A stretch of DNA of 64,000 nt, taken from Woeseia sp. (GTDB lineage Bacteria > Pseudomonadota > Gammaproteobacteria > Steroidobacterales > Woeseiaceae). This document shows positions 42,901 through 61,171 of this stretch, piece by piece (the first letter of the stretch is position 1; the number at the start of each line of letters is the position of its first letter). The stretch lies in NCBI GenBank assembly GCA_021773015.1, contig JAJFKW010000001.1, positions 3,207,305-3,271,304 on the forward strand, read 5' to 3'. The notes under the pieces were generated by a model. That model worked only from the letters and a program-made list of their open reading frames with translations. It did not search any database and was not told the origin of the DNA. A program made the position numbers and the translations under genes.

Positions 42901-45900
42901 GCGTCGATTTACGTGACACGCTGCGCGGTGGCACGGGCGACGATCAATTTGTGGAAGCAAGAGACAGTGGTGCGACACACTATCTTTATGATGCGGGCGA
43001 TGGCCACGACACCATTTCAGATACCGGACACGTCGACCTAATAGGCACTGGCGGCGAAGTCTTCTTGCTTGAAGATAGATTCGAATTTGTCGATGGATCG
43101 GGAATTCAATTAAACGATTTGCAGGTCACACGCGTCGACGACAACCTCGTTCTCACGGTTTCGCCAACGGATAGCATTACATTCCAGAACTGGTTCCTGT
43201 CGATCGACAATCAAATTGAAGAGTTCATCACCTATGACATCGCGGGCAATCCGATCGTCAATACAGCGGCGGACATCGAAGCACTAATTGATACCGTGAA
43301 CGCGGCACCAGTTCTTGATAATCCGCTCGCCGACAACGCTGCGACTGAGGGTCAGGTCGTTAGCATTGCGGTTCCCGCCAACACCTTTAGCGATCCGGAC
43401 GCTGGCGATGTCTTAAGTTATTCCGCACGTCTCGTCGGTGGTGCAGCGTTGCCGGCCTGGTTGAGTTTCGATGCCGCCACACAGACGTTCACGGGTACAC
43501 CACCAAACAACAGCAACGGAAACCTCGATATCGAAGTGACCGTGACCGACGCGGGTGGTCTTTCGGTGAGTGATGAGTTTTCGCTGGCGATTGCGGACGC
43601 TAATTTCGCGCCGCAGCTGGACAATGCAATTGCGGATACTAGTGTTGCTGAGGACTCGGCACTAAATTACACAGTACCTGCAGACGCGTTTTCAGATTCG
43701 GATATTGGCGACTTGCTCAGTTACTCGGCACAGTTGAGCGGCGGCGGGGCGCTGCCGCTGTGGTTGAACTTCGATGCCATAACGCGCACGTTTACGGGAA
43801 CACCGCCGAATAACACCAACGGTGACATCGATATTGAAGTAATCGCGACGGATGGTGACGGACTGTCCGCAAGTGACATATTCACGTTGGCGGTAACAGA
43901 TACGAATTTTGTGCCGACGTTGGACAACGCAATTACTGACGCCGCGGCAACCGAAGGTGAAGTGCTGAACTTGGTGCTTCCGGCCAACACGTTCAGCGAT
44001 CCGGATACTGGCGATACGCTAACCTATTCCGCGCAATTGAGTGGTGGAGGTGCGTTACCCACTTGGCTGAGTTTTGATGCTGCAACTCGAACGTTCACGG
44101 GCATACCGCCGAATAATTCCAACGGTAATGTCGATGTAGAAGTCACCGCAACGGACAACGGTGGTTTATCAGCCAGCGACGTCTTTACGATCGGCATTGC
44201 TGACGCGAACTTTGCGCCGTCGCTGGACAATGCAATTGCCGATGCAAGCGCGACAGAGGGACAGGTGCTCAGCTTTACGGTTCCTGTAGATGCGTTTAGC
44301 GACGCAGATGCTGGCGATACATTGAGCTATTCCGCGCAATTGAGTGGCGGCGGTGCATTACCCGCCTGGCTGAGTTTTAACGCCGCAACACGAACGTTTG
44401 CAGGGATACCGCCAAATAATTCTAATGGCACGATCGACGTTGAGGTCGTTGCAACGGACAGTGGTGGTTTATCGGCCAGTGATGTCTTTACCATTGACGT
44501 TGCAGACGCAAACTTTGTCCCGTCGCTGGATAACGCAATTGCGGACGCTGTCGCGACCGAGGGCGAAGCGCTGAACTTGGTGGTTCCGGCCAACACGTTC
44601 AGCGATCCGGATACGGGCGATACGCTAACCTATTCTGCGCAAGTGAGCGGCGGTGGTGCGTTGCCCGCTTGGCTGAGTTTTGACGTCGCAACTCGAACGT
44701 TCACGGGCATACCGCCAAACAATTCCAATGGCACGATCGACATTGAGGTCGTTGCAACGGACAGTGGTGGTTTATCGGCCAGTGATGTCTTTACCATTGA
44801 CATTGCTGACGCAAACTTCGTACCGACGCTGGACAACGCAATTGCGGCTGCCGCGGCGACCGAAGGTGAAGCGCTGAATTTAGTACTTCCGGCTAACACG
44901 TTCAGCGATCCAGATGCTGGCGATACATTGAGCTATTCGGCGCAAGTAAGTGGCGGTGGCGCGTTACCCGCTTGGCTGAGTTTTGACGCCGCAACTCGAA
45001 CGTTCACGGGCATACCGCCAAACAACTCGAACGGCAGTGTGGACATCGAGGTGATCGCCACTGACGGTAGTGGTTTGTCCGTCAGCGACGTCTTTACCAT
45101 AGACATTGCTGACGCAAACTTCGTAGCGACGCTGGACAACGCAATTGCGGATGCCGCGGCGACCGAAGGTGAAGCGCTGAATTTAGTACTTCCGGCGAAC
45201 ACATTCAGTGATCCGGATGCTGGCGATACGCTAACCTATTCCGCGCAATTGAGTGGCGGTGGTGCACTACCCGCTTGGCTGAATTTTGACGGCGCAACAC
45301 GGACGTTCAATGGGATACCGCCAAATAATTCTAATGGCACGGTCGATATCGAAGTCATTGCCACAGACAGCGGCGGGTTGTCCGTGAGCGATACGTTTAC
45401 ACTCGATATTGTTGACGCAAACTTTGCGCCAAGGCTCGACAATGCGCTTGCCGACGCTGCTGCGACTGAAGGTCAGGTGTTCAGTCTGACGTTGCCGGCA
45501 GATGCGTTTAGCGATCCAGATGTTGGTGATGTTCTAACGTTCAGTGCGCAACTCAGCGGCGGTGGCGTGCTACCGGGTTGGCTGAGTTTTGATGCGCTCA
45601 CGCGAACGTTTTCTGGAATCCCGCCAAATGACGCGAGTGGAACGATAGACGTTGAGGTGGTAGCAACGGACAGTGGTGGATTATCAATCAGTGATACGTT
45701 CACGCTAAATGTTCTAGACGAAAATTTTGCACCGACGCTGGACAATGCAATTGCCGACACCGCTGCGACCGAGGGCGAAGCGCTGAACTTGGTGGTTCCG
45801 GCCAGCACGTTCAGCGATCCGGATACGGGCGATACGCTAACCTATTCTGCGCAAGTAAGCGGCGGTGGTGCGTTGCCCGCTTGGCTGAGTTTTGATGCTG

Positions 45901-48900
45901 CAACTCGAACGTTCACGGGTATACCGCCAAACAATTCCAACGGCCCGATCGATATTGAGGTCGTTGCAACGGACGGTGGTGGTTTGTCGGCCAGTGACGT
46001 CTTTACCATTGACATTGCTGACGAAAACTTTGTGCCGATGCTGGACAACGCAATTGCCGATGCCGCTGCGACTGAGGGGGAATCGCTGAACTTCGCGCTT
46101 TCGGCCGACACTTTCAGTGACTCAGATAGCGGAGACGTGCTTACTTACACTGCGCAGCTTAGTGGCGGCGGTGCATTGCCCGTTTGGTTGAGTTTTGATG
46201 CCGCAACGCTGACCTTTTCCGGCATACCACCAAACAACTCGAACGGCAGTGTGGATATCGAGGTGATCGCCACTGACGACGGTGGTTTATTTGCCAGTGA
46301 CACGTTTACGCTGGATATTGCGGACACGAATTTTGCACCGACGCTGAACAATGCGGTTGCTGATGTCAACGCAACTGAGGGACAGCTGTTCAGCGTGACG
46401 GTGCCAGCAGACGCATTTGGCGATCCTGATGCTGGCGATACGCTGAGTTATTCAGCTCAACTCAGCGGTGGTGGCGGATTGCCGGCATGGCTGAGTTTTG
46501 ATGCTGCAACTCGAACGTTCACGGGTATACCGCCAAACAATTCCAACGGCACGGTCGATATCGAAGTCATCGCCACAGATAGCGGTGGGTTAACCGCTAG
46601 CGATGTGTTCTCACTTGATATTGCGGACGTGAATTTTGCGCCGTTGCTGGACAATCCGCTCCTTGACGCTGGGATCATCGAGGGACAGGCATTTAGTTTT
46701 GCCATCGCGGCCGACGCCTTCAGCGATTCGGACGTTGGAGACGTATTGGCATTCACGGCACAGATCAGCGGCGGCGGAGCACTGCCGGCTTGGCTGAATT
46801 TTGACCCCGTTACGCAGACGTTTTCCGGTACTCCGCCTAACTCAAGTGCCGGCGATGTCAGCATCGAGGTCATCGCAACCGATTCTGGTGGGCTTTCTGT
46901 GAGCGACGTTTTCATCCTAACCATCAGCGATACGAATGTTGCGCCAATCTTGGACAATCCTATCGCCGATGCGAACGCCAACGAAGGCCAGGCGCTGAGT
47001 ATTACGGTTGCGCCTGACGCGTTCAGCGATCCGGACGCTGGCGATACGCTTACCTACTCTGCGAGGTTGGCGGGTGGCGGCGCGCTACCGGCATGGCTGG
47101 CATTTGATGCGGTGTCCCGAACGTTCACAGGAACGCCACCCAACAATTCGAACGGCAGTATTGAGATTGAAGTCGTTGCAACAGATAGCGGCGGACTATC
47201 TGCAAGCGATTCGTTTACGCTGGATATCGGCGATGTGAACTTCGCGCCAATGCTCGACAACGCGGTTGCCGATGCCGCTGTGACCGAAGGAGAAGTGCTG
47301 AACGTGGTGCTTCCGGCTAACACCTTTAGTGACCCGGATGTCGGCGATACGCTGAGCTATTCGGCGCAATTAAGTGGCGGTGGTACGTTACCTCTTTGGC
47401 TGAGTTTTGACGCTGAAACTCGAACGTTTACCGGAATACCGCCGAACAATTCCAACGGTTCTATCGACATTGAAGTTATTGCAACGGACAGTGGCGGGTT
47501 ATCTGCCAGTGACGTCTTTACGCTGGACATTGCTGACGCAAATTTTGCACCGACGCTGGACAACGCAATTGCTGACGCCGCTGCGGGCGAAGGCGAAGCG
47601 CTGAACTTAGTGCTTCCGGCCAATACTTTTAGTGATCCGGATACTGGCGACACGTTGACATATTCTGCTCAGTCCGCGGGCGGCGGCGCACTACCCGCAT
47701 GGCTCGACTTTGATACCGTAACAAGGACGTTCTCAGGCACCCCACCTAACAATTCGAATGGCAGTGTCGACGTTGAAGTTACCGCAACGGATACAGGCGG
47801 CCTTTCGGTTAGCGACACGTTCACTATAAGTATCGCCGACGCAAACTTTGTTCCTAACCTCGATAACGCAATCACCGATGTGAACGCCACAGAGGGTGAG
47901 ATCTTCAGTTTTGCCGTACCGGCCAATACATTTAGTGATCCCGACAACGGCGACACGCTCGTATATTCTGCTCAGTCCACGGGCGGTGGCGCGTTACCCG
48001 CATGGCTCGCCTTTGATGCCGTAACCAGGACATTCTCTGGCACGCCACCTAACAATTCCAATGGCAGTGTCGACGTTGAAGTCATTGCAACGGATTCGGG
48101 TGGCCTTTCGGCTACTGATATATTCACGCTCGATATTGCTGATGCAAATTTTGCACCGACACTCGACAACCCCATCGCGGATACGGGTGCTACGGAAGGG
48201 CAGCTATTTAGCCTGACAGTAGCTACGGATGCGTTTAGCGATCCAGATGTTGGCGATGTGCTGACCTACTCGGCGCAGCTTGGTGGAGGCGGGGCGCTAC
48301 CCGCTTGGCTCAGTTTCGATTCTGTCAGCCGGACCTTATCCGGAACGCCACCAAATGGCAGCAGTGGCGCTTTCGATGTAGAGATCACGGCGACGGACAT
48401 CGATGGACTCATGGTGAGCGATACGTTCACAGTTGATGTATCGGCGACAAACTTTGCACCAACTCTGGATAATCCCATTGCAGATGCCGGTGCAACCGAG
48501 GGTGATGCGCTTACGTTGACGGTGCCGAGCAACACGTTTAGCGACCCGGATACGGGAGATTCCTTGACGTATTCCGCACAGCTTGAGGGTGGTGGTGTGC
48601 TGCCCGGTTGGTTGAATTTCGATGTCGCGACACGGACGTTCACGGGGACACCGCCAAATAATTCGAACGGGAGTGTCAGTCTTCAGGTTACCGTGACCGA
48701 CAACGGGGGTCTATCGGTCAGTGACACGTTCGTATTGTCGATTGACGACAGCAACTTTGCGCCAAACCTCGACAATGTGCTTATCGATGCGAATGCAATG
48801 GAAGGCGCGGCCTTTAGTCTCGTCGTGCCAGCCAATTCATTTAGTGATCCGGACGACGGCGATACACTCACCTATGCAGCGCGGCAAAGTGATGGCAACC

Positions 48901-51650
48901 CGTTACCGGTGTGGCTTAACTTTGATTCCACAACCCGCACATTCACTGGAACGCCGCCAAATAATTCAAACGGGAATATCGATATAGAGGTCGTCACAAC
49001 AGATTCTGGCGGCTTGACGGCAGCGGATACATTCGTCTTGACCATCGCCGATGCCAATTTTGCTCCTAGTCTCGACAACGCGATTGTGGATACCAACACT
49101 GCGGAGGGCGCTACTTTCAGCTATACAATTCCAGCCAATACATTTAGCGATCCCGATATCGGAGATACGTTAACGTATTCGGCACAGTTGAACGGCGGCG
49201 GCGCGCTGCCAGCATGGCTCACCTTCGATCCTGCGACGCGAACGTTCACAGGGATACCGCCAAATAACTCAAACGGCAATATCGAAGTTGACGTTGTCGT
49301 GACGGACACGGGAGGTTTATCCGTTAGCGACTCATTTACCCTGAACATCGCTGATACGAATTTCGCACCGTCTTTGGATAATGCACTCGTCGACGCAAAT
49401 GCAGCCGAGGGTCAAGCCTTCAACTTAGCGGTGCCAGTGGATACATTTAGCGATTCTGATATCGGCGACACGCTGACCCTATCTGCCCGGCTTGTTGGCG
49501 GTGCAGCGCTGCCATCCTGGCTAAATTTCGATGCTGTTGCGGGTGCATTTAGCGGTACGCCGCCCATCGGTACTGAGGGAGTTATTGATGTTGAAATTAT
49601 CGCCACGGACAGCGGTGGATTGACGATTGCGGATGCATTTAATATTTCAATTGGCAGCGGCAGCAACGTGATTACCGGTACCGCAGGTGACGATGTGTTG
49701 GTTGGTACGTCGGCAATGGATCAGATCTTCGGTCTCGGTGGAGACGATACCCTGCGCGGCGGTGCCGGTGATGACAGTCTCATTGGCGGCGCTGGCAATG
49801 ACGATCTTCGCGGCGGCAGCGGAAATGACATGCTGCGCGGCGGCGCAGGTAGTGACAGCATCCGTGGACATGGCGGCAACGATGATATTTCCGGTGGCGC
49901 GGCGAACGACTTTATCAGGGGTGGTGGTGGCGCAGATACCATTCGGGGCGATCGCGGAGATGATGAAATATTCGGAAATGGTGGCGCGGACCTAATTTTT
50001 GGTGGCGCTGGAAACGACACAATAAGTGGCGGCAATGGTGCTGACGAGATTCATGGAAATGGTGGAAGCGATATAATTTTCGGTGGGGGCAGCGCAGATA
50101 CGATCAGCGGAAACGGCGGTGCTGATACGATTCTCGGCGAAAACGGCAACGACAGCCTGAGTGGCAATGGAGGCCGCGACGTGATCGAGGGTGGCGCCGG
50201 CGGAGATACGATTATCGGCGGCGCCGGTAGGGATACGCTTTCTGGCGGTGACGGATCGGATGCATACATATATGAAATTGGTGATGGTTCGGACACGATA
50301 AATAATGCAAGTATCGATGCGGCGACCGATACGTTACGGTTTGGCACTGGAGTTGCGAGTGGCGAGCTTGCTTTCACGCAATCAGGTAACGATTTGCTGA
50401 TAGATGTTGGAGCGAGCGGTGGTTCCATTCGGGTCGAGGGCTGGTTTGCCAGCGCCGTACAGGAAATTGACTTCGTAGAAACCATTGACGACGGCGTGGT
50501 TTTGACTGCGGCGGACATCAACACGATCGTTGCCACGGCTGGCATTTCACAAACCAGTATTTCTCGAACAGTGTCGGACACCACGGAACCGTTTGTTGCG
50601 GCAAAGGGCGTTAACGACATGTTAGTCCCGATAGATCGAGAAATAGAATTTGTCGAGCCTACTGTCGTCGCGAAGGGAGGTCGCAGCGTACCCGTGCCGA
50701 TAGAGCGAGTAGTTGACGTTGCCGATACGTCTGTTGCCGAAAAGGGCGGTAGTGAAAAGCGCATACCGATGGAACGACAAACCGACTTGCGCATCGGGCG
50801 TTTGCAAAGGTGGTTCGGCTTACGTGGTTCCAATCGGATTAAGCAACCAAGGGACTCGATTTCGGCGGCTTCAGACAGTTCGACTGTGATTGCGTCAATG
50901 AAGGGCCCACAGGTTTCCGTGCCAATGACTAGATCGATGCCCGATGACGAGGTTGACGATAACGTAACCGCAGGTGACAGAACGCACGTGTTGAATAGCG
51001 GTGCCGTAGTACCGGTTATGACGGACTTGGCAGCGTTGGCTGACGCTGGCTTATCAACCGTTCCGCCAGCGCTGTCAACGGTGCCGGTTGCGCGCATCTC
51101 CGTACCAATGACGAGAACGCTACCCAGCAATGAGGTTAACGATAGCGTCTCTGCTGACGAGAGAATGCACGTAATAAACGCTGGTGCAGTTGCGCCGATC
51201 ATGACGGATCTTGCGACGCTAGCCGACGAAGGTCTATCAACCGTTTCACAGTCAGTATCAACAATTTCAGATACGCAGCCACTAATAGCGACACTGCCAG
51301 CAACGGACGGACAGCATCGCGCATTCGCTGATCCAGAATTTGAAACGTTTCGTTCAGCGATTGACGCGCTCGATGCAACGACGGTGGCAGGAGTTTCCCG
51401 GCGTCAGGAGTTAGTGAAAATCGGCGAGCTGACTGAAGCAAATTTCGACGCGGCAGCGACGAGTACCACCGATGCCGAATCTGAGGTGACCATGGCTGGC
51501 TCCGCTACTGATGAAATTGATCGATCCTTAAATCAGTTTGTGGCCTCAATTGCCGGCTTCGGCGATGCCAGGGACCACGTTGGGGACGGTTTTTCCTCTG
51601 TGGAGGACTACGATTCAGTTCCGCAGATTACGGTTCCGTCGGTCAACTAG
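36969..51650 (+). CDS. Giant RTX protein with lipase-like domain and tandem Ig-like (He_PIG) repeats
   Basis: A 4893-residue secreted protein, start ATG with GGAGG eight bases upstream. Residues about 1-350 form an alpha/beta-hydrolase (class-3 lipase-like) region with GHSLG at 169-173 (Ser171). Calcium-binding GGxGxD repeat blocks occupy about 520-590, 750-1170, 1350-1410, 1590-1700, 1810-2020 and 4230-4430. One isolated He_PIG-type domain lies at 1488-1588, and 21 tandem copies of about 101 residues run from 2111 to about 4228. The tail (about 4430-4893) carries the VP[IM]xR repeats listed separately and should hold the type I signal. It could be an adhesin with lipase activity. The catalytic Asp and His are not assigned. 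Confidence 0.93.
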   Translation: MPQSVTATTAHDALDAALLARAAYIDFHPADGATPTSLRVALTFKGGFTEAEADYIVERYELLSVTSDPVDPLSFAVGFKGTLWRRLDVGASLFDEYVVAFGGTDLDSLGAATQDIIADGLLGVTGEALGQTQALKVWVERLYTGTSATVFGLPGLGLLDRFDVVDVTGHSLGGHLVQYAVGQFNAGNPDRNLWLPDQAFTDGYTFNGAGIGRFFGLGIPGNPKKLLGQLGYLTSANTAIRGNYLWNEGNFGIENFISEAGISVVPTWISGMRPGEDASLFIEDQGSHPDAIRSVIGNHGVIYQVDSLFVYNIFEGFVGSDQAPLERVAFMQDMLSILRASSNDAFESLERVVNHLREFFPNIVADPNLGPAAREDRNALIALSIAISDELEANPRPATITNLVTDGELFNSIIARMDTPEGLARRVALILGQPFVLDGLDYQAAFNQNGDYDLENFTDKFLKDRAAYAAALFEANAEDVEAGGRVSLFPHYFENRLGEFESIVAYDNARGEPPPINELKQTLFGGDDADTLAGGDEDDAIYGLDGADILEGGEGNDYIEGGDGNDELTGGAGNNVLLGGDGFDTYRVGVNERVDITDSDGFGAIVVELSDGTFFTLGSQTVSAVADQADVYRDDAGFTYVVNGPDVIVSTPDGGQIAIREFDFLLDSLGINLGGFQGIDPPGQALTFDVDFTIQPPPGDPNSINQLGNFSNGTQQWLSPGFWFLRQDVEVINAVAVPDGALNGSITEFVTIIGGFGDSFMTGDDGFNIFRDDGGLFPSTPYLGGYGMGPVMGNDVLDGRGGDDWLFSSGGDDFVMGGAGNDIIVDSHSGFDITQALNGDPLPLEFTSYGDVEWITLPGNSSNDTLLGGTGDDYIAAHGGNQVMDGGDGADELFAGAGDDVLIGGAGDDVLLGDTRLSDSPIEMAPGTVPADFEFVFNGDNLTFDASSSDQWGNDTLDGGEGNDTLYGGAGNDSLSGGAGNDRLQGDFVFAYADLRAGLLNRPTDPTSIHGDDILLGGAGNDELLGYGGDDLIEGGDDDDVAAGGEGSDIVRGDGGNDELQGNEGDDFLFGGDGDDTLFGQEDNDELHGEEGADQLVGGDGDDFLSGGNGDDALFGEAGQDTLLGGAGIDDLQGGDDDDFLIGGVGNDLLFGGAGDDTYIITGSDGQDQLTDTQGSNRLVFNFVPTELSVSIENGVYFVDYAPGNYLFMDAETFNSIDEIEFLGGITVDRDVFVDQYQPGNSNGGLITLANGALAGDLTIFARNDDLIISYNGPVVDWIDVAALSDRDILAIEGDALDFGAATSAPAIALKNWYLAGPLGYVRFITDGVGGNINLDNDAPVARIFDGGPDESLLTGSDEADTFSGGAGHDIFIAGDGDDQITGGEDADTLIGGPGNDAYFYNIADGNDIIADESGVDSLTFGPGISAADLTITMNSGALVIQIGPEENFDKITVSDWLADTDRPIDSIVFDDGSSLTVAEIEALVTGNRAPTLVTPFTDLELSFEQPFSFDIPAGSFTDPNGDALTYDAQLSDGSPLPSWLSFDPLTQTFSGITPPQLESGTFSIIVTARDPLGLPVSDTFTFSVGLNRILGTAGNDTLAGDALDNTILGFTGDDRLSGGDGNDFIRGDEGRDFLFGDAGDDTLFSNLGFDDLRGGAGNDLLISGPDADGSRQFGEDGDDRLIGGPGRDAFDGGDGNNTYEIGLGGGVDTLNYQSLGTHTVRFGAGIQLSDLTASFEGLGNQFDLTIFYNPSDATDNITLDEVFIRTISNGGQQASPPFTIDPLNYVFEFEDGSSVTVIELGDLAVIPTDGADFIFPNSQNDIVFGGDGDDVILGRTYQFNSDLNANTLFGEGGNDDIEGGVGDDFLSGGDGDDELGGGDGDDTMEGGLGDDFLSAGDGNDNLDGGDGADSLHGGRGDDIIMGGAGDDVITGDPQAFNFDGFDQLFGESGNDNIFGGARADLIEGGSGDDIIDGGSSSVDLRDTLRGGTGDDQFVEARDSGATHYLYDAGDGHDTISDTGHVDLIGTGGEVFLLEDRFEFVDGSGIQLNDLQVTRVDDNLVLTVSPTDSITFQNWFLSIDNQIEEFITYDIAGNPIVNTAADIEALIDTVNAAPVLDNPLADNAATEGQVVSIAVPANTFSDPDAGDVLSYSARLVGGAALPAWLSFDAATQTFTGTPPNNSNGNLDIEVTVTDAGGLSVSDEFSLAIADANFAPQLDNAIADTSVAEDSALNYTVPADAFSDSDIGDLLSYSAQLSGGGALPLWLNFDAITRTFTGTPPNNTNGDIDIEVIATDGDGLSASDIFTLAVTDTNFVPTLDNAITDAAATEGEVLNLVLPANTFSDPDTGDTLTYSAQLSGGGALPTWLSFDAATRTFTGIPPNNSNGNVDVEVTATDNGGLSASDVFTIGIADANFAPSLDNAIADASATEGQVLSFTVPVDAFSDADAGDTLSYSAQLSGGGALPAWLSFNAATRTFAGIPPNNSNGTIDVEVVATDSGGLSASDVFTIDVADANFVPSLDNAIADAVATEGEALNLVVPANTFSDPDTGDTLTYSAQVSGGGALPAWLSFDVATRTFTGIPPNNSNGTIDIEVVATDSGGLSASDVFTIDIADANFVPTLDNAIAAAAATEGEALNLVLPANTFSDPDAGDTLSYSAQVSGGGALPAWLSFDAATRTFTGIPPNNSNGSVDIEVIATDGSGLSVSDVFTIDIADANFVATLDNAIADAAATEGEALNLVLPANTFSDPDAGDTLTYSAQLSGGGALPAWLNFDGATRTFNGIPPNNSNGTVDIEVIATDSGGLSVSDTFTLDIVDANFAPRLDNALADAAATEGQVFSLTLPADAFSDPDVGDVLTFSAQLSGGGVLPGWLSFDALTRTFSGIPPNDASGTIDVEVVATDSGGLSISDTFTLNVLDENFAPTLDNAIADTAATEGEALNLVVPASTFSDPDTGDTLTYSAQVSGGGALPAWLSFDAATRTFTGIPPNNSNGPIDIEVVATDGGGLSASDVFTIDIADENFVPMLDNAIADAAATEGESLNFALSADTFSDSDSGDVLTYTAQLSGGGALPVWLSFDAATLTFSGIPPNNSNGSVDIEVIATDDGGLFASDTFTLDIADTNFAPTLNNAVADVNATEGQLFSVTVPADAFGDPDAGDTLSYSAQLSGGGGLPAWLSFDAATRTFTGIPPNNSNGTVDIEVIATDSGGLTASDVFSLDIADVNFAPLLDNPLLDAGIIEGQAFSFAIAADAFSDSDVGDVLAFTAQISGGGALPAWLNFDPVTQTFSGTPPNSSAGDVSIEVIATDSGGLSVSDVFILTISDTNVAPILDNPIADANANEGQALSITVAPDAFSDPDAGDTLTYSARLAGGGALPAWLAFDAVSRTFTGTPPNNSNGSIEIEVVATDSGGLSASDSFTLDIGDVNFAPMLDNAVADAAVTEGEVLNVVLPANTFSDPDVGDTLSYSAQLSGGGTLPLWLSFDAETRTFTGIPPNNSNGSIDIEVIATDSGGLSASDVFTLDIADANFAPTLDNAIADAAAGEGEALNLVLPANTFSDPDTGDTLTYSAQSAGGGALPAWLDFDTVTRTFSGTPPNNSNGSVDVEVTATDTGGLSVSDTFTISIADANFVPNLDNAITDVNATEGEIFSFAVPANTFSDPDNGDTLVYSAQSTGGGALPAWLAFDAVTRTFSGTPPNNSNGSVDVEVIATDSGGLSATDIFTLDIADANFAPTLDNPIADTGATEGQLFSLTVATDAFSDPDVGDVLTYSAQLGGGGALPAWLSFDSVSRTLSGTPPNGSSGAFDVEITATDIDGLMVSDTFTVDVSATNFAPTLDNPIADAGATEGDALTLTVPSNTFSDPDTGDSLTYSAQLEGGGVLPGWLNFDVATRTFTGTPPNNSNGSVSLQVTVTDNGGLSVSDTFVLSIDDSNFAPNLDNVLIDANAMEGAAFSLVVPANSFSDPDDGDTLTYAARQSDGNPLPVWLNFDSTTRTFTGTPPNNSNGNIDIEVVTTDSGGLTAADTFVLTIADANFAPSLDNAIVDTNTAEGATFSYTIPANTFSDPDIGDTLTYSAQLNGGGALPAWLTFDPATRTFTGIPPNNSNGNIEVDVVVTDTGGLSVSDSFTLNIADTNFAPSLDNALVDANAAEGQAFNLAVPVDTFSDSDIGDTLTLSARLVGGAALPSWLNFDAVAGAFSGTPPIGTEGVIDVEIIATDSGGLTIADAFNISIGSGSNVITGTAGDDVLVGTSAMDQIFGLGGDDTLRGGAGDDSLIGGAGNDDLRGGSGNDMLRGGAGSDSIRGHGGNDDISGGAANDFIRGGGGADTIRGDRGDDEIFGNGGADLIFGGAGNDTISGGNGADEIHGNGGSDIIFGGGSADTISGNGGADTILGENGNDSLSGNGGRDVIEGGAGGDTIIGGAGRDTLSGGDGSDAYIYEIGDGSDTINNASIDAATDTLRFGTGVASGELAFTQSGNDLLIDVGASGGSIRVEGWFASAVQEIDFVETIDDGVVLTAADINTIVATAGISQTSISRTVSDTTEPFVAAKGVNDMLVPIDREIEFVEPTVVAKGGRSVPVPIERVVDVADTSVAEKGGSEKRIPMERQTDLRIGRLQRWFGLRGSNRIKQPRDSISAASDSSTVIASMKGPQVSVPMTRSMPDDEVDDNVTAGDRTHVLNSGAVVPVMTDLAALADAGLSTVPPALSTVPVARISVPMTRTLPSNEVNDSVSADERMHVINAGAVAPIMTDLATLADEGLSTVSQSVSTISDTQPLIATLPATDGQHRAFADPEFETFRSAIDALDATTVAGVSRRQELVKIGELTEANFDAAATSTTDAESEVTMAGSATDEIDRSLNQFVASIAGFGDARDHVGDGFSSVEDYDSVPQITVPSVN
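38536..40445 (+). repeat. First clusters of RTX (GGxGxDxL) calcium-binding repeats
   Basis: Nonapeptide coding repeats (for example GGEGNDYIEGGDGNDELTGG) occur in several blocks separated by non-repeat beta regions, each block ending in a haem-peroxidase-like strand pattern such as GFDTYRVG. Each block would fold into a parallel beta roll once calcium is met outside the cell. Confidence 0.9.
43299..49653 (+). repeat. 21 tandem 303-bp repeats encoding Ig-like (He_PIG) domains
   Basis: Each unit of about 101 residues starts NFAPxLDN, has FSDPDxGDTLxYSAQ, then LPAWLSFDAATRTFTGIPPN and ends GGLSxSDxFTLxIADA. Copies 3-10 are the most alike, with long stretches identical at the DNA level between units 5, 6, 7 and 9, showing recent duplication or gene conversion. 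Copies near the ends (1, 12, 13, 19-21) have diverged more. Copy number is likely to vary between strains. Confidence 0.92.
49666..50260 (+). repeat. C-terminal RTX calcium-binding block
   Basis: About 20 consecutive GGxGxD-type nonapeptides, residues about 4233-4430, starting GTAGDDVLVG and ending GGDGSDAYIYEIGDG. This is the longest uninterrupted beta-roll block in the protein and lies next to the secretion-signal region, as in other type I substrates. Confidence 0.9.
50577..51284 (+). repeat. Novel C-terminal repeats: three 23-residue units and two 61-residue units
   Basis: After the last RTX block the protein repeats a core [VI]-P-[IM]-x-R at residues 4553, 4576 and 4599, exactly 23 apart, each preceded by a KG dipeptide (AAKGVND, VAKGGRS, AEKGGSE). 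The core returns as VPMTR at 4651 and 4712, each opening a unit of about 61 residues with EVxDxVxAxxRxHVxNxGA and MTDLAxLADxGLSTV. No known family is recognised. Confidence 0.85.
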
Positions 51651-51884: not shown

Positions 51885-53753
51885 ATGGCAGACGACATTA
51901 CGCAGAAGATCGGGCGCTACGAATTGATTCGATCCGTTGGTCGAGGCTCTCAAGGTACCGTGTATTTGGCGCGCGACCCAACTTTGGACCGGCACGTAGC
52001 GGTCAAAGTATTGACAGATGCAGATGCCGGCCTGAACCGGATGACCGAAGACGGCGCGCCGCTGGAAGCACGTATTGCCGGCAAGCTAAAACATCCGGGT
52101 ATCATTCCCATTTTCGATGCTGGCGAGTGTGACGTCGGACCGTATTTAGTCTTCGAATACGTCGAAGGGAAAACCCTCGCTCAGCGTTTAAAAAGCAGCG
52201 GGGGAATGTCGATTGAAGCGGCGGTCCCACTTGTATCTGCAATTCTTAAAGCACTTGCTGTTGCCCATACGTCTGAAATTTTACATCTCGACTTGAGTCC
52301 GCGAAATATACTGATTGATGATAATCAACTGCCAAAAGTGATGGATTTCGGCTTAGCACAGTACGTCAGTAATGCGCGCGAACCGAAGGAGTTTGCAACC
52401 GGCACGTTGCGCTACATGGCGCCCGAACATTTCTTGGGCGAGCCGCTTGGGCCGTGGACCGATGTATTTGCCCTCGGCAGCACGTTTTATGAGGTGGTCT
52501 CGGGTGAACGGGCAATGCAAGGTATGGAGCTGCTAGAAATTCAAAATAGAATTATTGCTGGTGACGTCGATTTTTCGCTATTGAAAAATGATCCGCATGG
52601 TGATGCGTTCGCACGGTTTCTTGCTGGCGCTTTAGAGGTTGGTCGCGAAGGTCGTTACGCTGATTGCTCTGTAATGAGCGAAGCATTTGAACTGTTTCTT
52701 AACGAAACGGACTTGGTCAGTGAGGCGAATGCCGATGGATCCAACCACAGCACCATCGAGTTTCTGCTTCGGCGTATGCAGCGAACAGGCGATTTTCCGA
52801 CTATTTCTCGAACGTTGTCTGATATCAATCGTCTGACCGGCGACGACAGTGGCGCGAGCGCAGACAAACTTGCCAGTGTCATCCTGCGCGATTTTGCGCT
52901 GACCGGAAAGCTCCTCAAAATTGTCAACTCAGCATTCTATGGCGCGCACGCGACGGAAATTACGAGCATCTCCCAAGCAGTTGTTTTTCTAGGTGTGGAC
53001 AAGGTGCGAATGACCGCTAATAGTCTGAGTTTTTTCGGCCATATGAAGGGTGACTCGGCTATCCTCAAGGATTCGATGACGAAATCGTTTCTGAGCGGCC
53101 TGATTTCCAGACATCTGGCGCAACGCCAAAAAATTCCGGGTGTGGAAGAGGCGTTTATCTGTGGTATGTGCCAAAACCTTGGCGAGACACTGGTAATTTA
53201 CTATTTTCCCGAGGAATTCGAAGGCATCAGCAAGTTGCAGCTTGACAAAGACCTAGATAAGTTTGCCGCGGCACGCGGTGTGCTTGGCGTGAGCTACTCT
53301 GATCTGGGTGCGGCCGTCGCAAAATCTTGGAATTTGCCGCGGTCGATCATCGAGTCCATTCGAGGTGTGCCTCCAGGGCCACTAAAGACTCCAGAGTCCG
53401 ATTTAGACAGTCTCCGTGATATTGCTGCATTTTCAAATCAACTATGCGATTTGTTTCAGCAATGTGCCCAAGAAGATATTGAGCGCAACATGTCGGAATT
53501 GCTCGAGCGTTACAAAATGAGCGTGCCGCTCGAAGCGGACTTTTGCGTTAGCCTGGTCAACGCGGGGCTGGAGAAGTTGAAACAATATGCGCCGATATTC
53601 GAAATAAGCGTAGCATCCAGCGGATATTGCCAGGCGGTGCAGTCGTGGGCCGACATGCAAAGCAAAGCTCTGGGCCAAGATGGTGCTACCAGCGGGACGC
53701 AGAGTGATACTGACCGACCCAGGCCGAAGTCTTCTAAGGCAGTAAGCGCCTAA
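51885..53753 (+). CDS. Serine/threonine protein kinase fused to HDOD domain
   Basis: A 622-residue cytoplasmic protein. Kinase domain at about 11-270: glycine loop GRGSQGTVYLA, K41 (VAVK), catalytic loop H134-L-D136-L-S-P-R-N141, and D154-F-G. The HRD Arg is Leu and the loop Lys is Ser, so it is a non-RD kinase and may be weak. The HDOD domain at about 286-500 carries FLLRRMQRTGDFPTISRTLS and LRDFALTGKLLKIVNSAFYG. HDOD proteins act in signalling to motility, biofilm or cell cycle. It lies 234 bases after the RTX gene and could tie signalling to that system; this is inference. Confidence 0.9.
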   Translation: MADDITQKIGRYELIRSVGRGSQGTVYLARDPTLDRHVAVKVLTDADAGLNRMTEDGAPLEARIAGKLKHPGIIPIFDAGECDVGPYLVFEYVEGKTLAQRLKSSGGMSIEAAVPLVSAILKALAVAHTSEILHLDLSPRNILIDDNQLPKVMDFGLAQYVSNAREPKEFATGTLRYMAPEHFLGEPLGPWTDVFALGSTFYEVVSGERAMQGMELLEIQNRIIAGDVDFSLLKNDPHGDAFARFLAGALEVGREGRYADCSVMSEAFELFLNETDLVSEANADGSNHSTIEFLLRRMQRTGDFPTISRTLSDINRLTGDDSGASADKLASVILRDFALTGKLLKIVNSAFYGAHATEITSISQAVVFLGVDKVRMTANSLSFFGHMKGDSAILKDSMTKSFLSGLISRHLAQRQKIPGVEEAFICGMCQNLGETLVIYYFPEEFEGISKLQLDKDLDKFAAARGVLGVSYSDLGAAVAKSWNLPRSIIESIRGVPPGPLKTPESDLDSLRDIAAFSNQLCDLFQQCAQEDIERNMSELLERYKMSVPLEADFCVSLVNAGLEKLKQYAPIFEISVASSGYCQAVQSWADMQSKALGQDGATSGTQSDTDRPRPKSSKAVSA

Positions 53754-54145
53754 CTCGCGCTAGGTGCGAAACTGTCTGGCGCGTGAAACGCAACGCTTAT
53801 CCGGTCCATATTAGAAGCGGGCTGACCACTCCCTCAGATTCGAACTAAATACCTGCCGGGTGAGTCAGATCCATACCTAGGTAGGGTGGCGCCGACGGGT
53901 GAGGTATCTGGTGTGCGAAACGATTTGCGATGTTTGGTCAGCACCGAGCGGCACGAATCCGCTAAGGCGCGATGCCTCCGTACTTGCAGCGGTGAGCGCT
54001 GGATGTTGAAGATTTCGCTACTTCAAGCAAACTAAATATTTGTTAAATCGAAGATTATCGCGAATCCGATAGCGGAAACCCCTAGGTCGCTCGTCTTATG
54101 CAGTGATTCTGCAAAAGGTTCGTCTGGTTTGAGAGGAACGGGCAC
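53754..54145. promoter_or_regulatory. Intergenic control region of the ECF-FecR-receptor operon
   Basis: This gene-free 392-bp stretch contains the perfect palindrome TACCTAGGTA at 53874-53883, the inverted repeat TTGAAG/CTTCAA at 54006-54026, and an AT-rich stretch near 54030-54060. The palindrome repeats a motif also seen at 20178-20187. The -35/-10 pair recognised by the ECF factor cannot be assigned by eye. Confidence 0.35.
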
Positions 54146-54721
54146 ATGGCTGATGACCAAAAAATTGCGAAAATTTTCCTGTCCATACGTTCGGGGCTTG
54201 CACGTGCGGTAATGGGAATTGTGCCACCCAGGGATGTCGAAGATGTTGTGCAGGAGTCGTATGTACGGGTCTGCCAGGCAGAGAAAAAAGGTGCCATTCG
54301 CGACCCCAGGTCGTTTCTATATAGGACGGTCCGTAATTTGGCGCTCGATCAAGTAAAAAGTGCCCAATCACGCTTAGTAATTAGTGTTGAAGACGATCGA
54401 GCGGCGGGTTACGAAGATGAGCAGCGAAATGCAGATGAAACAGTGCAGCAGGTTTCATCTCACGAGGAGTTCGCAATTTTTTGCGAGGCAGTGAGATGCC
54501 TGCCTGTTCAATGTCGACGGGCGTTTGTACTAAAGAAAGTTTACGGCTATACGCAGAAGGAGATTGCGTGCGAATTAGGACTAAGTGAGAGCACGGTGGA
54601 AAAACATATCGCACAAGGCGTTAAGCGTTGCACGCTGTTCATAATGGACCATGACAAGAGCGGCGCTGATATCGGGCGCCGGTCAACGTTGACCAACGCA
54701 CGACAAGGAAGTCGCTCATGA
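54146..54721 (+). CDS. ECF-type RNA polymerase sigma factor (FecI-like)
   Basis: A 191-residue sigma factor with regions 2 and 4. Region 2: DVEDVVQESYVRV and DPRSFLYRTVRNLALDQ. Region 4: LPVQCRRAFVLKKVYGYTQK, then a helix-turn-helix ELGLSESTVEKHIAQG. GAGAGGA precedes the ATG. It overlaps fecR by four bases (ATGA), which couples translation. With FecR and an STN-type TonB receptor it forms a cell-surface signalling system: ligand at the receptor releases the sigma factor through FecR. Confidence 0.95.
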   Translation: MADDQKIAKIFLSIRSGLARAVMGIVPPRDVEDVVQESYVRVCQAEKKGAIRDPRSFLYRTVRNLALDQVKSAQSRLVISVEDDRAAGYEDEQRNADETVQQVSSHEEFAIFCEAVRCLPVQCRRAFVLKKVYGYTQKEIACELGLSESTVEKHIAQGVKRCTLFIMDHDKSGADIGRRSTLTNARQGSRS

Positions 54722-55761
54722 GTAATGTTCACGAATTGCCAGTGTCTTCAACGGTATTTGATGAAGCAAGCGCTTGGATAGCGAGGCTTGACAACGGATT
54801 ATCCACTGCACAGGCGGAAGCGTTACGACAATGGTTGATAGCGAGTCCGAAGCACAAAGAGGTTCTATTCGAGATGGCTGCGCTATGGGACAGAATGGAG
54901 GGCTTATCGCGCCTTTCGGATATCTGTCCACACTCCGTAAACCAGTCAAACAGGTATCGCTGGTTTCTGCCAGCTGCGAGTCTGCTGATAGTCATATTGG
55001 GGGGAATGTGGGGCACTTATCACGCGTACTACTCAGATTCGCAGATCGAACGCCCCGTTGCCGAAGTAAGGAATCCAGTAGATTTTTACGAAACGGCCAT
55101 CGGAGAGCAATCGACGATCCATCTGCCAGACGGCTCGCAGCTTGTACTCAATACGAATACGCGAGTGCAGGTCAAATTCACTGATCGATACCGTTTATTG
55201 AAGCTGGACCGCGGGGAACTGCATGTTGTGGTTGCCCCGGATGAATTCCGACCACTGAGCGTTATTGCTGGCGATAGGATAATTCAGGCCATTGGAACCG
55301 CATTTAATATCGAAATCAGGGAAGATCATGAGATTGAATTGGTCGTAACAGACGGAAAAGTGCTGATTGGGATATATGAGGGACATCAACCAGGTGGTGG
55401 TCATTCAGTTCCCGTGATTTTGCCGCCGTCTTCGATGACTGTTTCGGCGGGTGAGGAGACTGTGCTTACCTCCGCAGAATACGAGTTGGATACGATCGAG
55501 ACAGACGAAATTGCCGTCAAATTGTCGTGGCGCGAAGGAAATCTAATTTTTCGCGGCGAGACATTAGAAGATGCGGTCGCGGAGATAGGGCGATATACCG
55601 CAGTCGAGTTTGTCATCCTCGACGAGGAGTCAAAAAATGTTCGAGTCGCAGGTATGTTCAAGGCTGGAGACGTCAATGGGTTGCTTGTCGCGCTAGAGAA
55701 GAATTTCAATGTGACTAATCGGCGTATCGGCGACAAACAAATTTTGTTGAGAGGCCGATAG
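54718..55761 (+). CDS. FecR-family anti-sigma/sigma regulator
   Basis: A 347-residue inner-membrane regulator. The cytoplasmic DUF4880 part (EASAWIARLDNGLSTAQAEA, WLIASPKHKE) binds the sigma factor. One membrane helix lies near residues 84-102. The periplasmic FecR domain (STIHLPDGSQLVLNTNTRV, LDRGELHVVV, GTAFNIEI) follows, then a C-terminal STN-like half (LIFRGETLEDAVAEIGRYT, VTNRRIGDKQILLRGR). It receives the signal from the receptor's STN domain. It overlaps the sigma gene and sits 44 bases before the receptor gene. Confidence 0.95.
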   Translation: MSNVHELPVSSTVFDEASAWIARLDNGLSTAQAEALRQWLIASPKHKEVLFEMAALWDRMEGLSRLSDICPHSVNQSNRYRWFLPAASLLIVILGGMWGTYHAYYSDSQIERPVAEVRNPVDFYETAIGEQSTIHLPDGSQLVLNTNTRVQVKFTDRYRLLKLDRGELHVVVAPDEFRPLSVIAGDRIIQAIGTAFNIEIREDHEIELVVTDGKVLIGIYEGHQPGGGHSVPVILPPSSMTVSAGEETVLTSAEYELDTIETDEIAVKLSWREGNLIFRGETLEDAVAEIGRYTAVEFVILDEESKNVRVAGMFKAGDVNGLLVALEKNFNVTNRRIGDKQILLRGR

Positions 55762-55805: not shown

Positions 55806-58800
55806 ATGTCGTTGTCTATATGGCGGAAAAAAATTACTGGATCGTCTAGTACTCAAGCGACTCATGTAGTCGTTGCCGAGAAAAAAGATTCGGTGTTTTT
55901 CCGATGTTTTCTTATTGGCTGCCTGTTTGTCGTGCCAGGTTACTTACTGGCGGACAGCCGAACAGATAACGGCGTGCATCAATTCGATATTCCCCGGCAA
56001 CGAGCGGATCTGTCGCTCACACAATTTGCAGAACAGGCAGACCTAACTCTAATTTTTCCGTTTGAAAACACGCGAGATAGGACCGCCAACCGGCTAGTCG
56101 GTGAGTATTCCCTTGCAGAGGCAATTGACAAGCTTCTTGCAGGGACTGGCCTAAAGCCGGAGTTCAGCGTCGAGAAAGTTTTGACGATAACTACAGACGT
56201 TAAGTCGATGTCCGGGGGGAGAACGATGAACAAAGCCAAGAAAGCGGGATTCGCGGCGCTATTGTCAGCCGTATTTGTTAGTTCAGGTGCTGGTGCCCAA
56301 GAGGAAGCTGAAAACGATGGGGCCGATGTACTCGAGGAAGTCGTGGTTACAGGTTCGAGAATTCGCAGGGCCGGATTCGATACCTTGCAGCCAGCAGTGC
56401 AAATCGACTCCGATTTTCTGGAAACGCGCGGGTTCATAAATGTCGCCGATGCGCTAAATGAAGTGCCGACGTTTGGTCCACCGGGCGCTGGCCCTGTTGG
56501 CCAAGGCAACGGTACGGCTGTCGGCCAGAATTTTGTTAATGCGTTTAGTTTGGGTTCGCAGCGCACATTGGTTCTGATAAATGGCCGGCGAGTTGTATCG
56601 CAAAATTCACCGGGAACAACCGGAATCACGTCCGGCCAGCAAGTTGACCTCAATATCGTTCCGACGGCTCTGATTGAGAGAGTCGAAACAATATTCAATG
56701 GAGGTGCGCCGATCTACGGTGCCGACGCGGTAGCGGCAACTGTCAATATTATTCTCAAAGACAATTTCGAAGGGGCGCAATTCGATGCTCAATACGGAAT
56801 TGCTGACGAGGGTGATGCAGATAACTATCTCTTTCGCGGCCTCTTCGGTGGAAATTTCGACTCCGGCCGTGGCAATGCCGTTCTGTCTGTCGAATATGCC
56901 AGGCAAGAAGGCGTGTTGCCCGGTGATCGGACCATTGGCCGCCGCGACATCAATTTTCAGGACAATCCGGACCCCAACGGTCCCAATCAGATCATTGCCG
57001 ATAACTCAGAGATGGTTTGGCAAGTTCCACTGACGGGTGTCCCCTTGCTGAATCCTGGCTTTTGGGACGTGCCCGTCGGCGGGACAAACGGGTTTGTGGA
57101 TGCAAATGGCAACGGGCTGATTTTCGAGACCGATGGCCAGTCTTTGATTTCCGCAACATCCGACATAATCGGCACCCCGTGGAACATCGTGTTTGGCACG
57201 GACCCCGGCGGATTTGATAATCCATATGTTATCGCGCTCGGCCGCACCAATACGCTATTGACGCCAAGTGAACGTTGGGCCGCAACGGCAATTGGTCACT
57301 ATGACATCACAGACAATGTTCAGGCCTTCTCCGAATTCCTGTTCTCACGCACCGAGTCGGTAGACCGCGTCAATCAGCCGCCCTGGGGTGGTGGATTTTT
57401 CGCTCCCGGTGCATCATCGGCAATCATGGTGCCGCTCACTAACCCGTACGTTAGTGCGAACGTTGCTGGAACCATTCGAACGCAACTTGAGGCGAGAGAC
57501 CTAGACGGCGATGGATTGCCAGACGGTGACGCAAATCTTCTCGATCTTGATCGGGACGGCATTGCAGAAACGCCCGGCTTTTTCCTCACGCGTCAAAATG
57601 GGGATATCGTCGGAGACAATCCCAATTTCCGAGATCAGAACGTTTTTCGGGTCGTTGCGGGCCTAAAAGGCGACTTCGAGTTAGCCGGTAGGTCCTGGGA
57701 GTGGGAAGCTTCCTACAATTTCGGACAAACTGATGCAGATTCGCGAGTAACTACGTTGAATCCAACCCGCTATCCGCTTGCGCTCGACGCGGTAATCGAT
57801 CCGGCGAACGGCGAGATTGTCTGTCGGTCAACGCGTGACGGAATCGTTCAACCTGGTGGCACCATCCTTTCGCAACCGACTATTATTGACGATGTCGCCA
57901 ATTGCGTGCCGATTAATCCACTAGGGTTTGGCAATTTTAGCGAGGAAGTCCGGGACTATTTAGTGCAGGAGCAATTTCGTAGAACAAAGATTCGTCAGCA
58001 GGTATTCGAGCTAACCGCGAGTGGTGATCTGTTCGATTTGCCGAGCGGAACTGTGCAAATTGCCGGTGGTGTGACGCACCGAAAAGAGGAGGCGGGTTTC
58101 TTCTCAGATCTGGCGAGTGAAACCGGTATCGAGCCACTTTTTGAGCAGGCTGTGCTGACGACTGAAGGTGAGTACGATACAAATGAATACTACGTTGAAG
58201 CACTTATTCCGGTATTTCAAGACGGCAGTCGTTGGGACATCCCAGGCGTGTCGTCGCTAACTTTGGACGGTGCGGTACGCTTTGTTGATAACAGCGTGGC
58301 TGGATCGGATACCACATGGACAGCTGGCGCCAGGTTGCGCTTCGACTTACCCTGGTTTGAAGACGGTCTAATGATCCGCGGAAACGTGACGCAGGCAATT
58401 CGATCACCCTCGATCACCGAATTTTTCTTACCGGAATCTCCGGCAACAGATCGCGGTAACGACCCTTGTGACGAGGAATTCGTCGATACCGGAATCAACC
58501 CAGCGGCTCGTCGGGCCAACTGTCAGGCGGAACTCACTGCCGCACAAGCTGCTGCCGATCCGACAGCGCCAATTCAGACTGTGACTCTGGATAACTTCAT
58601 GTCGACTGTCGTGAACGCATCGGGACCTGGTATTGTTTCAGGAAGCACAGCACTCGACAATGAAATCAGTGATTCATGGACTGTGGGAATTGTATTTACG
58701 CCGCCGCAAATACAAGGGCTGAGACTATCGGCGGACTGGACGCAGATCGAAATCGACGATGCGATCGTAAATGTGAGTTTGAACACGATATTCGCCGCCT

Positions 58801-59429
58801 GCTATGACGATCCGAGTTCTCCGGCTGATGTTTGTGGGCGGGTTGCGCGCGATCCGAATACATTCCAGGTGGCGAATTTTCAGGGAGGATTCTTGAATGC
58901 CGCTGAGCGGGACTTTGAGGGATTGGTCGTCAACATTGACTACAGCACGGATGCTGCTGACTTACCGTTCTTGTCAAATATTCCGGGCACAGTGTCGTTT
59001 GCCTCCTCATACTTGCACACGAGCTTTCAGGGAAGTGCAGTAACAGGTGTGACGCCGCAGGACGAAACGGGCGAACGTGGATTCGAGCAAAACATGTGGC
59101 AGGGCAACCTTGGATATCAACGTGAACGTCTGGGTTTCTTCTGGCAAACACGTTGGTTGGGAGAGGGCAACGCCGACAATGCGGGCGGACCGAACCAATT
59201 TAGTACTCGAACTTACGACAATCTGGTTATCAATAACTTCACGACCACATACCAGCTATCTGAGAAAATCAGTTTACGTCTCGTCGTCAACAACGTATTC
59301 GACGAATTTCCCAGTGATTCGCGGATCGCGTTCTCTGGCGACACTTCGACAACTGGTGGTGGTAACGCCAATTTCTTTGACGACCCTGTCGGACGCCGGT
59401 ATCTGTTTGCGGTAAGCGCTAAGTTCTGA
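55806..59429 (+). CDS. TonB-dependent receptor with STN domain and an internal second signal peptide
   Basis: A 1207-residue outer-membrane transporter. Signal-like region at about 30-50, STN domain at about 60-135 (LSLTQFAEQADLTLIFPFEN, LLAGTGLKPEFSV). Then at M141 a second good signal peptide appears, MNKAKKAGFAALLSAVFVSS ending GAGAQE, preceded by GGGGGGAGAACG at 56213-56225. The TonB box is near EEVVVTGSRI, the plug at about 180-310 and the barrel to the C-terminal F. No SusD-type gene follows. It probably signals to FecR and imports an unknown ligand. Confidence 0.92.
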   Translation: MSLSIWRKKITGSSSTQATHVVVAEKKDSVFFRCFLIGCLFVVPGYLLADSRTDNGVHQFDIPRQRADLSLTQFAEQADLTLIFPFENTRDRTANRLVGEYSLAEAIDKLLAGTGLKPEFSVEKVLTITTDVKSMSGGRTMNKAKKAGFAALLSAVFVSSGAGAQEEAENDGADVLEEVVVTGSRIRRAGFDTLQPAVQIDSDFLETRGFINVADALNEVPTFGPPGAGPVGQGNGTAVGQNFVNAFSLGSQRTLVLINGRRVVSQNSPGTTGITSGQQVDLNIVPTALIERVETIFNGGAPIYGADAVAATVNIILKDNFEGAQFDAQYGIADEGDADNYLFRGLFGGNFDSGRGNAVLSVEYARQEGVLPGDRTIGRRDINFQDNPDPNGPNQIIADNSEMVWQVPLTGVPLLNPGFWDVPVGGTNGFVDANGNGLIFETDGQSLISATSDIIGTPWNIVFGTDPGGFDNPYVIALGRTNTLLTPSERWAATAIGHYDITDNVQAFSEFLFSRTESVDRVNQPPWGGGFFAPGASSAIMVPLTNPYVSANVAGTIRTQLEARDLDGDGLPDGDANLLDLDRDGIAETPGFFLTRQNGDIVGDNPNFRDQNVFRVVAGLKGDFELAGRSWEWEASYNFGQTDADSRVTTLNPTRYPLALDAVIDPANGEIVCRSTRDGIVQPGGTILSQPTIIDDVANCVPINPLGFGNFSEEVRDYLVQEQFRRTKIRQQVFELTASGDLFDLPSGTVQIAGGVTHRKEEAGFFSDLASETGIEPLFEQAVLTTEGEYDTNEYYVEALIPVFQDGSRWDIPGVSSLTLDGAVRFVDNSVAGSDTTWTAGARLRFDLPWFEDGLMIRGNVTQAIRSPSITEFFLPESPATDRGNDPCDEEFVDTGINPAARRANCQAELTAAQAAADPTAPIQTVTLDNFMSTVVNASGPGIVSGSTALDNEISDSWTVGIVFTPPQIQGLRLSADWTQIEIDDAIVNVSLNTIFAACYDDPSSPADVCGRVARDPNTFQVANFQGGFLNAAERDFEGLVVNIDYSTDAADLPFLSNIPGTVSFASSYLHTSFQGSAVTGVTPQDETGERGFEQNMWQGNLGYQRERLGFFWQTRWLGEGNADNAGGPNQFSTRTYDNLVINNFTTTYQLSEKISLRLVVNNVFDEFPSDSRIAFSGDTSTTGGGNANFFDDPVGRRYLFAVSAKF
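56213..56228 (+). promoter_or_regulatory. Internal ribosome binding site and ATG inside the receptor gene
   Basis: A strong purine-rich sequence (CGGGGGGAGAACG) lies just before an in-frame ATG at 56226 whose product starts with a complete signal peptide. Translation from here would give a receptor without the STN domain. Confidence 0.55.
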
Positions 59430-59563: not shown

Positions 59564-61171
59564 GTGACATTCATTTTTGGCAGATCCGCGGAGCATAATA
59601 AGGGCTATCAGGTCTGTGCTGTGCTGGCCTGCGCGACGATAAGCACCGGGTTGCACGCTTGCTCTCAGCGAGAAGCGGTCGAAACGAATATCTCGCGCTA
59701 CGACCCGCTAATGTCCACTGTTGCGTCAATTCAAAGTGGGCTGAAAGACGATTCATTTACTTGCCATCAGGTCATAGCAAAGCACCTCGCACGCATCGAG
59801 AAGTACGACAAAAGCTCTGGGCTTAACGCAATATCCGTCATAAATTCGCACGCGCTGGAGCGAGCCGCAGAGATTGACTCAAAAATTGCCATCGGCGAAC
59901 AAATTGGACCATTGGCTTGTGTGCCAATCGTCGTCAAGGATAATTTCGATACTCATGACTTACCAACGACGGCCGGGTCGCTCGCATTACGCGACAGTTA
60001 TCCGCCGGACGACGCTTTTCAAGTTAGCCAGTTACGGCAAGCTGGTGCGATCGTCATCGCAAAGTCCAATATGGCCGAGTGGGCGTTTAGCCCTAGACAA
60101 ACAGTAAGTTCCACGCATGGTACGACAGCGAATGCATACCAGTTAGACCGCACACCGGCGGGCTCTTCCGGTGGTTCTGCATCGGCGGTTGCAGCCGGAT
60201 TCGCGGTTGCGGCCTTAGGTTCGGACACCGGTAATTCGATACGTGGTCCATCTTCACATTTGTCACTCTTCGGAATTCGTTCAACGCTTGGATTGACAAG
60301 TCGTGACGGGGTGATTCCGTTGGCGCTGGATCGAGACATTGCCGGTCCGATGGCGCGTAATGTGGAGGATGCCGCAATACTATTTTCGGTTGTCGCCGGA
60401 TACGATGCTGCGGATCCGGTTACCGAGTTAGGTCGCGATTTTGGGGAGCGAGACTACACAGACTACTTACATAAAGATGGCCTGAGCGGTGCTAGAGTAG
60501 GCGTGCTCCGATATCTTGCTAAGGCCGACGAGGCTGATGCTGAGGTGCTGATGCTCTTTGGAAACGCCATTACCGATCTCAAACTCGCTGGTGCAACAGT
60601 TGTCGATCCGTTAACAGTCGGCAACATCGACCGACACGTCAAGGATGGATACTACTGTCCTACATTCCGCGCTGATATGGCCGAGTATTTCGGAAGCTTG
60701 GGCGAAGCTGCGCCCTACAACGATGTACTGAATCTGCTTGAAGATGACCTGGTACCCAAAGAACTAGAAGATACATTCAGGTATTTTGCGCGTGGCCCGT
60801 TAGATCGCTCTTACGAAGCAGAGTGCCCGTTTTATCTCGACCATCCGGGCAGACGTGCGTTCCTTGACGACGTTGTCGCTGCTATGAACAGTGAGAACAT
60901 AGACGTAATAATTTACCCAACGTGGGCGTACCCGCCGGCTTCGTTGGACAACGCGCGCGAAGATTATAGGGGCGACAATTCACAACTTATTGCACCGACA
61001 ACGGGTATGCCCGCGGCGACAGTACCCATGGGGTTTACGAAATCCGGACTCCCCATCGGTTTACAGATACTCGCTCGGCCATATGGGGAAGATGTCATTT
61101 TTCGTATGGCGTACGCGTACGAACAAAAGACCGGCCACCGCCGGCAACCGAAGCTATTTCCTAATCTTTAG
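59564..61171 (+). CDS. Amidase-signature family hydrolase, predicted lipoprotein
   Basis: A 535-residue amidase, GTG start. An N-terminal hydrophobic segment with Cys33 (STGLHACSQ) suggests export and a lipoprotein anchor. The catalytic triad is K125 (VVKDNFD), cis-Ser S202 (PAGSSGGSAS) and nucleophile S225 in GSDTGNSIRG. The usual TGGS is TGNS here, so the oxyanion loop is altered. It would hydrolyse an amide, perhaps a peptide or aryl amide taken up with the neighbouring receptor's ligand; the substrate is unknown. A terminator before it means it has its own promoter. Confidence 0.92.
   Translation: MTFIFGRSAEHNKGYQVCAVLACATISTGLHACSQREAVETNISRYDPLMSTVASIQSGLKDDSFTCHQVIAKHLARIEKYDKSSGLNAISVINSHALERAAEIDSKIAIGEQIGPLACVPIVVKDNFDTHDLPTTAGSLALRDSYPPDDAFQVSQLRQAGAIVIAKSNMAEWAFSPRQTVSSTHGTTANAYQLDRTPAGSSGGSASAVAAGFAVAALGSDTGNSIRGPSSHLSLFGIRSTLGLTSRDGVIPLALDRDIAGPMARNVEDAAILFSVVAGYDAADPVTELGRDFGERDYTDYLHKDGLSGARVGVLRYLAKADEADAEVLMLFGNAITDLKLAGATVVDPLTVGNIDRHVKDGYYCPTFRADMAEYFGSLGEAAPYNDVLNLLEDDLVPKELEDTFRYFARGPLDRSYEAECPFYLDHPGRRAFLDDVVAAMNSENIDVIIYPTWAYPPASLDNAREDYRGDNSQLIAPTTGMPAATVPMGFTKSGLPIGLQILARPYGEDVIFRMAYAYEQKTGHRRQPKLFPNL

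Follow-up and report, generated by a model that had tools for sequence, protein, structure and literature searches.

A probable second translation start with its own signal peptide inside a TonB-dependent transducer gene of Woeseia sp.

TonB-dependent transducers such as FecA, FpvA, PupB and FoxA are built in the order signal peptide, STN signalling domain, TonB box, plug and barrel, and have ECF sigma factor and FecR genes as neighbours as well as an ECF promoter. According to PMC11637429, a flexible linker connects their STN domain with the TonB box, whereas in the gene analysed here the same interval holds a second signal peptide (SP2) together with a start codon and a Shine-Dalgarno sequence (SD) of its own. 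For FoxA of P. aeruginosa the same study proposes that the signalling domain is separated from the receptor by the periplasmic protease CtpA and acts alone on the anti-sigma factor; the family described below would be similar in this separation but would have it encoded in the gene.

The gene lies in a 64-kb stretch of Woeseia sp. DNA, the whole of which is referred to as the window, and its features are collected in Table 1. ECF sigma factor and FecR genes adjoin it, the STN domain follows an N-terminal signal peptide (SP1), and behind these come LEEVVVTG, which we take to be the TonB box from its motif, a plug and a barrel, the last recognised by weak NCBIfam C-terminal matches alone. The Pfam STN match (E 1.1e-5, 25.6 bits) falls below the curated cut-off of 28.4 bits; in a genome-wide search the domain scored 30.8 bits, above that cut-off, and a profile of the family matched the solved domains of PupA, FpvA, PupB, FecA, HasR and FoxA in PDB. 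A plain flexible linker between the STN domain and the TonB box was not found; the linker ends in GGGGGGAG-AACG-ATG, so that, as the initial annotation had it, an ATG at residue 141, an internal SD and a full signal peptide are all present, in frame and after the STN domain. Internal in-frame starts yielding a short form without the N-terminal part are known from CheA (long and short), IF2 and ClpB. These proteins are cytosolic, whereas the window gene carries its own export signal at each start. Among titles and abstracts searched in the open-access literature, none describes an STN receptor that has a second signal peptide or starts internally, which is weak evidence of novelty.

Table 1. 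Features of the STN-receptor locus (positions in the window)
Feature	Position	Strand	Basis or remark
ECF-type promoter match GGAAA-N12-TCGTC ahead of sigma gene	54074-54095	+	pattern scan
ECF sigma factor, FecI-like	54146-54721	+	Sigma70_r2 and r4_2 matches
FecR-type anti-sigma regulator	54718-55761	+	FecR 2.5e-17, FecR_C 5.4e-6
STN-receptor frame, 1207 aa	55806-59429	+	SP1, STN, SP2, TonB box, plug, barrel
ECF-type promoter match GGAAA-N12-TCGTC ahead of STN-receptor gene	55825-55846	+	pattern scan
First signal peptide SP1, from GTG 55893	55893-55952	+	start inferred; weak SD (-3.0)
STN signalling domain	55980-56189	+	Pfam residues 81-129; family profile against PDB
Internal SD GGGGGGAG	56214-56221	+	4 bases before ATG; duplex -9.4 kcal/mol
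Internal ATG (56226-56228, residue 141) and SP2 MNKAKKAGFAALLSAVFVSSGAGA	56226-56297	+	predicted cut site Ala164|Gln
Predicted short product, plain receptor, 1067 aa (precursor)	56226-59429	+	translation
TonB box LEEVVVTG	56331-56354	+	by eye from translation
Plug domain	56379-56738	+	residues 192-311, E 1.9e-11
Amidase gene, next downstream of receptor	59564-61171	+	domain match

The amidase gene is possibly an operon member with the STN receptor; on a Novosphingobium plasmid (L158) an STN receptor gene is likewise followed by an amidase gene. Elsewhere in the window, positions 51885-53753 hold a serine/threonine kinase domain and an HDOD domain in a single frame, and positions 36969-51650 a frame of 4893 aa with many repeated units, calcium-binding or cadherin-like by eye. 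About 12 kb past the end of the window the same genome carries a degraded second copy of the STN receptor (L044:7570-8564), in which an STN frame of 116 aa stops inside the SP2 start region, SP2 is frame-shifted and the receptor is cut to 211 aa.

In order to find relatives, 396 genomes of the order were searched with residues 1-140, the STN part alone, so that SP2 could not bias their choice. Matches were obtained in 76 genomes, and the stronger rows, down to about E 6e-7, gave 115 distinct STN frames; the weaker matches G080 and G126:C18 were fetched as well and excluded from every count. A loose rule for SP2 was passed by 63 of the 115 frames, but also by 556 of 2300 tails after shuffling. 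Seven of these (L075, L086, L088, L090, L092, L109 and L118) were dropped by hand, the hydrophobic stretch lying after the TonB box or being unlike a signal peptide, and L095 was retained despite its weakness. An in-frame SP2 between the STN domain and the TonB box was thus assigned to 56 of the 115 frames (44 clusters at 60% identity), and the layout of the window gene recurs in its homologues; these 56 loci are partly hand-picked and related, so that the test counts given below are not independent and overstate independence. With a stricter rule, 51 of the 56 are retained and three further frames gained, at 165 positives among 5600 shuffles. Two of the 56 frames (L031 and L042) run off contig edges shortly after SP2. 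In most of the remaining STN frames the linker to the TonB box contains no SP2-like segment.

The promoter pattern GGAAA-N12-TCGTC has only the two matches of Table 1 in the window, against 0.22 expected, and 24 in the whole genome against six for a reversed control. A looser ECF promoter pattern was found at 27 of 56 loci with SP2 and at 3 of 54 without, and a FecR gene lies upstream in 47 of 56 and 36 of 55 loci, respectively. Position 55806, the listed start, holds as the beginning of the open frame but not as the first start: it lies upstream of the promoter match, its SD is almost absent (-0.4), and in relatives the sequence ahead of SP1 shows the evolution of non-coding DNA (pN/pS 0.97), so that translation probably begins after this stretch. 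It would therefore be merely a mechanical frame start, and the GTG at 55893 is the likelier one. The upstream start is uncertain, since 13 of the 56 loci have no ATG or GTG within 25 codons ahead of the SP1 core. The best SD at SP1 has a median of -3.8 in receptors with SP2 and -8.1 in those without (p 2e-4). A conserved 'WRK....SSS' before SP1 was rejected as a peptide: it coincides with the ECF promoter match, of which it is the translated shadow, it is interrupted by a stop in the relative L026, and the pN/pS of the stretch also speaks against it. In the presumed leader between the promoter match and SP1, an ATG is directly followed by TAG (55864-55869).

In receptors with SP2 it is this second signal peptide, and not SP1, that has the strong SD. 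SP2 is headed by ATG in 47 and by GTG in nine of the 56 loci, and by neither in none (ATG was sought before GTG). The SD at this start averages -8.18 kcal/mol (energies assume the usual 16S tail; the 16S was not found in the assembly), whereas the 247 internal ATGs of the same frames average -2.60 and 539 internal GTGs -2.64; the internal ribosome binding site seen in the window is thus conserved. Synonymous resampling gave -5.94 ± 0.28, none of 2000 resamplings being as low as observed, and when codon order was shuffled 200 times the SD at this start, present in 44 of 56 loci, was reproduced in a mean of 8.7 and a maximum of 17. Within 30 codons after the STN domain, an ATG or GTG with an SD of -7 or lower occurs in 47 of 56 frames that have SP2 but in just 2 of the 57 that lack it, and the internal layout is accordingly no accident of the window. 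Under the fixed start rule the SD is weaker than -7 in 15 of the 56 (e.g., L095, -1.7; L023, -3.0). A cut site of the form small-x-Ala followed by Gln, Glu or Asp is present in 53 of 56, and in an alignment of 39 of the 56 the Ala column of SP2 is one of three invariant columns (39/39). All 56 frames are open from the STN domain into SP2, across linkers of 16 lengths. Pooled over 13 pairs, pN/pS was 0.23 for STN, 0.46 for the linker, 0.40 for SP2, 0.36 for the receptor, 0.70 for SP1 and 0.97 for the stretch before it, and these comparisons show the STN domain to be under protein-level constraint. Since start codon and SD are kept in 56 frames, all of them open across 16 linker lengths, selection seems to act on the fused frame as well as on the inner start.

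A profile of the STN-SP2 region matched 26 of 369 genomes in a sample of the class (E ≤ 1e-6) and 85 of 398 in a sample of the phylum (E ≤ 1e-8), mostly by the STN domain alone. SP2 was recognised by eye in four loci of the class outside the order (L130, L132, L155 and L156) and, in the phylum search, in about six of 26 loci (L183-L187 and L191). Several of these have no strong SD; outside the order the layout is therefore sporadic, with thin evidence from the SD. In genus g214, which does not belong to the order, L156 has the SP2 start, while in L133 and L135 it seems worn away, which suggests that an inner start may be subject to loss.

Because related genes keep this layout, the signalling and transport parts are probably made, or cut, apart. 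We consider it likely that one frame of a TonB-dependent transducer carries two translation starts, and the locus is best read as yielding its signalling domain as a minor product or one that can be separated. The ECF promoter, presumably read by the neighbouring sigma factor, would give a single mRNA. Weak upstream initiation, probably at GTG 55893, would yield a long chain of SP1, STN, SP2 and receptor, and strong initiation at ATG 56226 a short chain of SP2 and receptor, that is, an ordinary transporter; given this difference in initiation, STN would be a minor signalling product beside abundant transporters. In the long chain SP2, lying between the STN domain and the TonB box, would probably be cut by signal peptidase I, freeing an STN domain that may act on the FecR protein. 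The two products envisaged by the initial annotation thus find support at the level of sequence, in the SD, start codon, signal peptide and open frame kept in 56 frames, from which we infer also their presence in cells and their ratio, the cut at SP2 and the action on FecR. In addition, where members of one receptor family lack the STN domain, they begin at the position corresponding to the inner start, behind strong SDs. A functional SP2 in the long chain would, however, obstruct an ordinary covalent transducer, and this would count against the two-start reading.

In an alternative scheme, signal peptidase I would cut one long chain at both SP1 and SP2, giving a free or SP2-anchored STN domain and a plain receptor from one translation event, the inner start being secondary. 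This scheme, which is compatible with two starts and which we rate at somewhat under even chances, is favoured by the invariant Ala of SP2, the cut site in 53 of 56 loci, the open frame in all 56 and the cleavage proposed for FoxA (PMC11637429), but it leaves unexplained why the SD is stronger than the protein sequence requires and why ATG or GTG heads SP2 in 56 of 56, and it places a signal peptide awkwardly behind an already exported domain. STN and receptor could also be two genes between which a stop is absent by chance, the long chain being unimportant. The strong receptor start and weak STN start would suit such an arrangement, which is nevertheless very improbable: no stop separates STN from SP2 in any of the 56 frames whatever the linker length, the sole broken case seen is the degraded copy L044 in the same genome, and the STN domain is constrained as a protein yet has no stop of its own.

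The initial annotation had also offered a recent fusion of a signalling domain to an ordinary receptor. If STN cassettes had been fused to whole receptor genes recently or repeatedly, SP2 and its SD being undecayed leftovers, this would agree with the shuffling of parts: receptors of L016 and L100 are 83% identical with STN domains 39% identical, and those of L048 and L065 75% with STN domains 36%. The receptors of the window and of L016 have STN-free relatives, and the apparent loss of the start in g214 fits as well. However, when the presence of SP2 is mapped on the STN tree, which comprises 112 rows and 70 columns and leaves many forks unresolved, 4 changes suffice (shuffled mean 37.7), whereas the receptor tree needs 19; the latter has 99 rows, a further 9 in which the pattern found no TonB box being omitted. 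SP2 similarity follows that of STN (Mantel r 0.288, p ≤ 0.001) more than that of the receptor (r 0.087, p 0.05). The STN-free relative of the window receptor (L010, 82% identical, apparently on the same contig as L013 of a Gammaproteobacteria metagenome-assembled genome) has a GGGGGGA SD and an unrelated signal peptide, against which the window SP2 scores 1 in alignment; against the SP2 of L054, whose receptor body has no BLAST match to that of the window, it scores 69. Together with an SD stronger than synonymous expectation, this makes fusion of that kind unlikely. Since SP2 tracks STN rather than the receptor, the signal peptide of the STN-free relative is unrelated, and a single receptor family is found both STN-free and with two STN types, SP2 appears to be part of the signalling cassette, with receptor bodies exchanged behind it, and STN-SP2 to be an old cassette rather than a recent fusion.

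Signalling front ends and receptor bodies, in other words, evolve as exchangeable modules, and where starts are assigned automatically one of the two predicted products will be overlooked. It is a matter of debate by which route a signalling domain in the outer membrane gets to an anti-sigma factor in the inner membrane; a recent study proposes that the domain is cut off beforehand (PMC11637429). A conserved family in which the separation is seemingly encoded in the gene makes this cut-first proposal directly testable.
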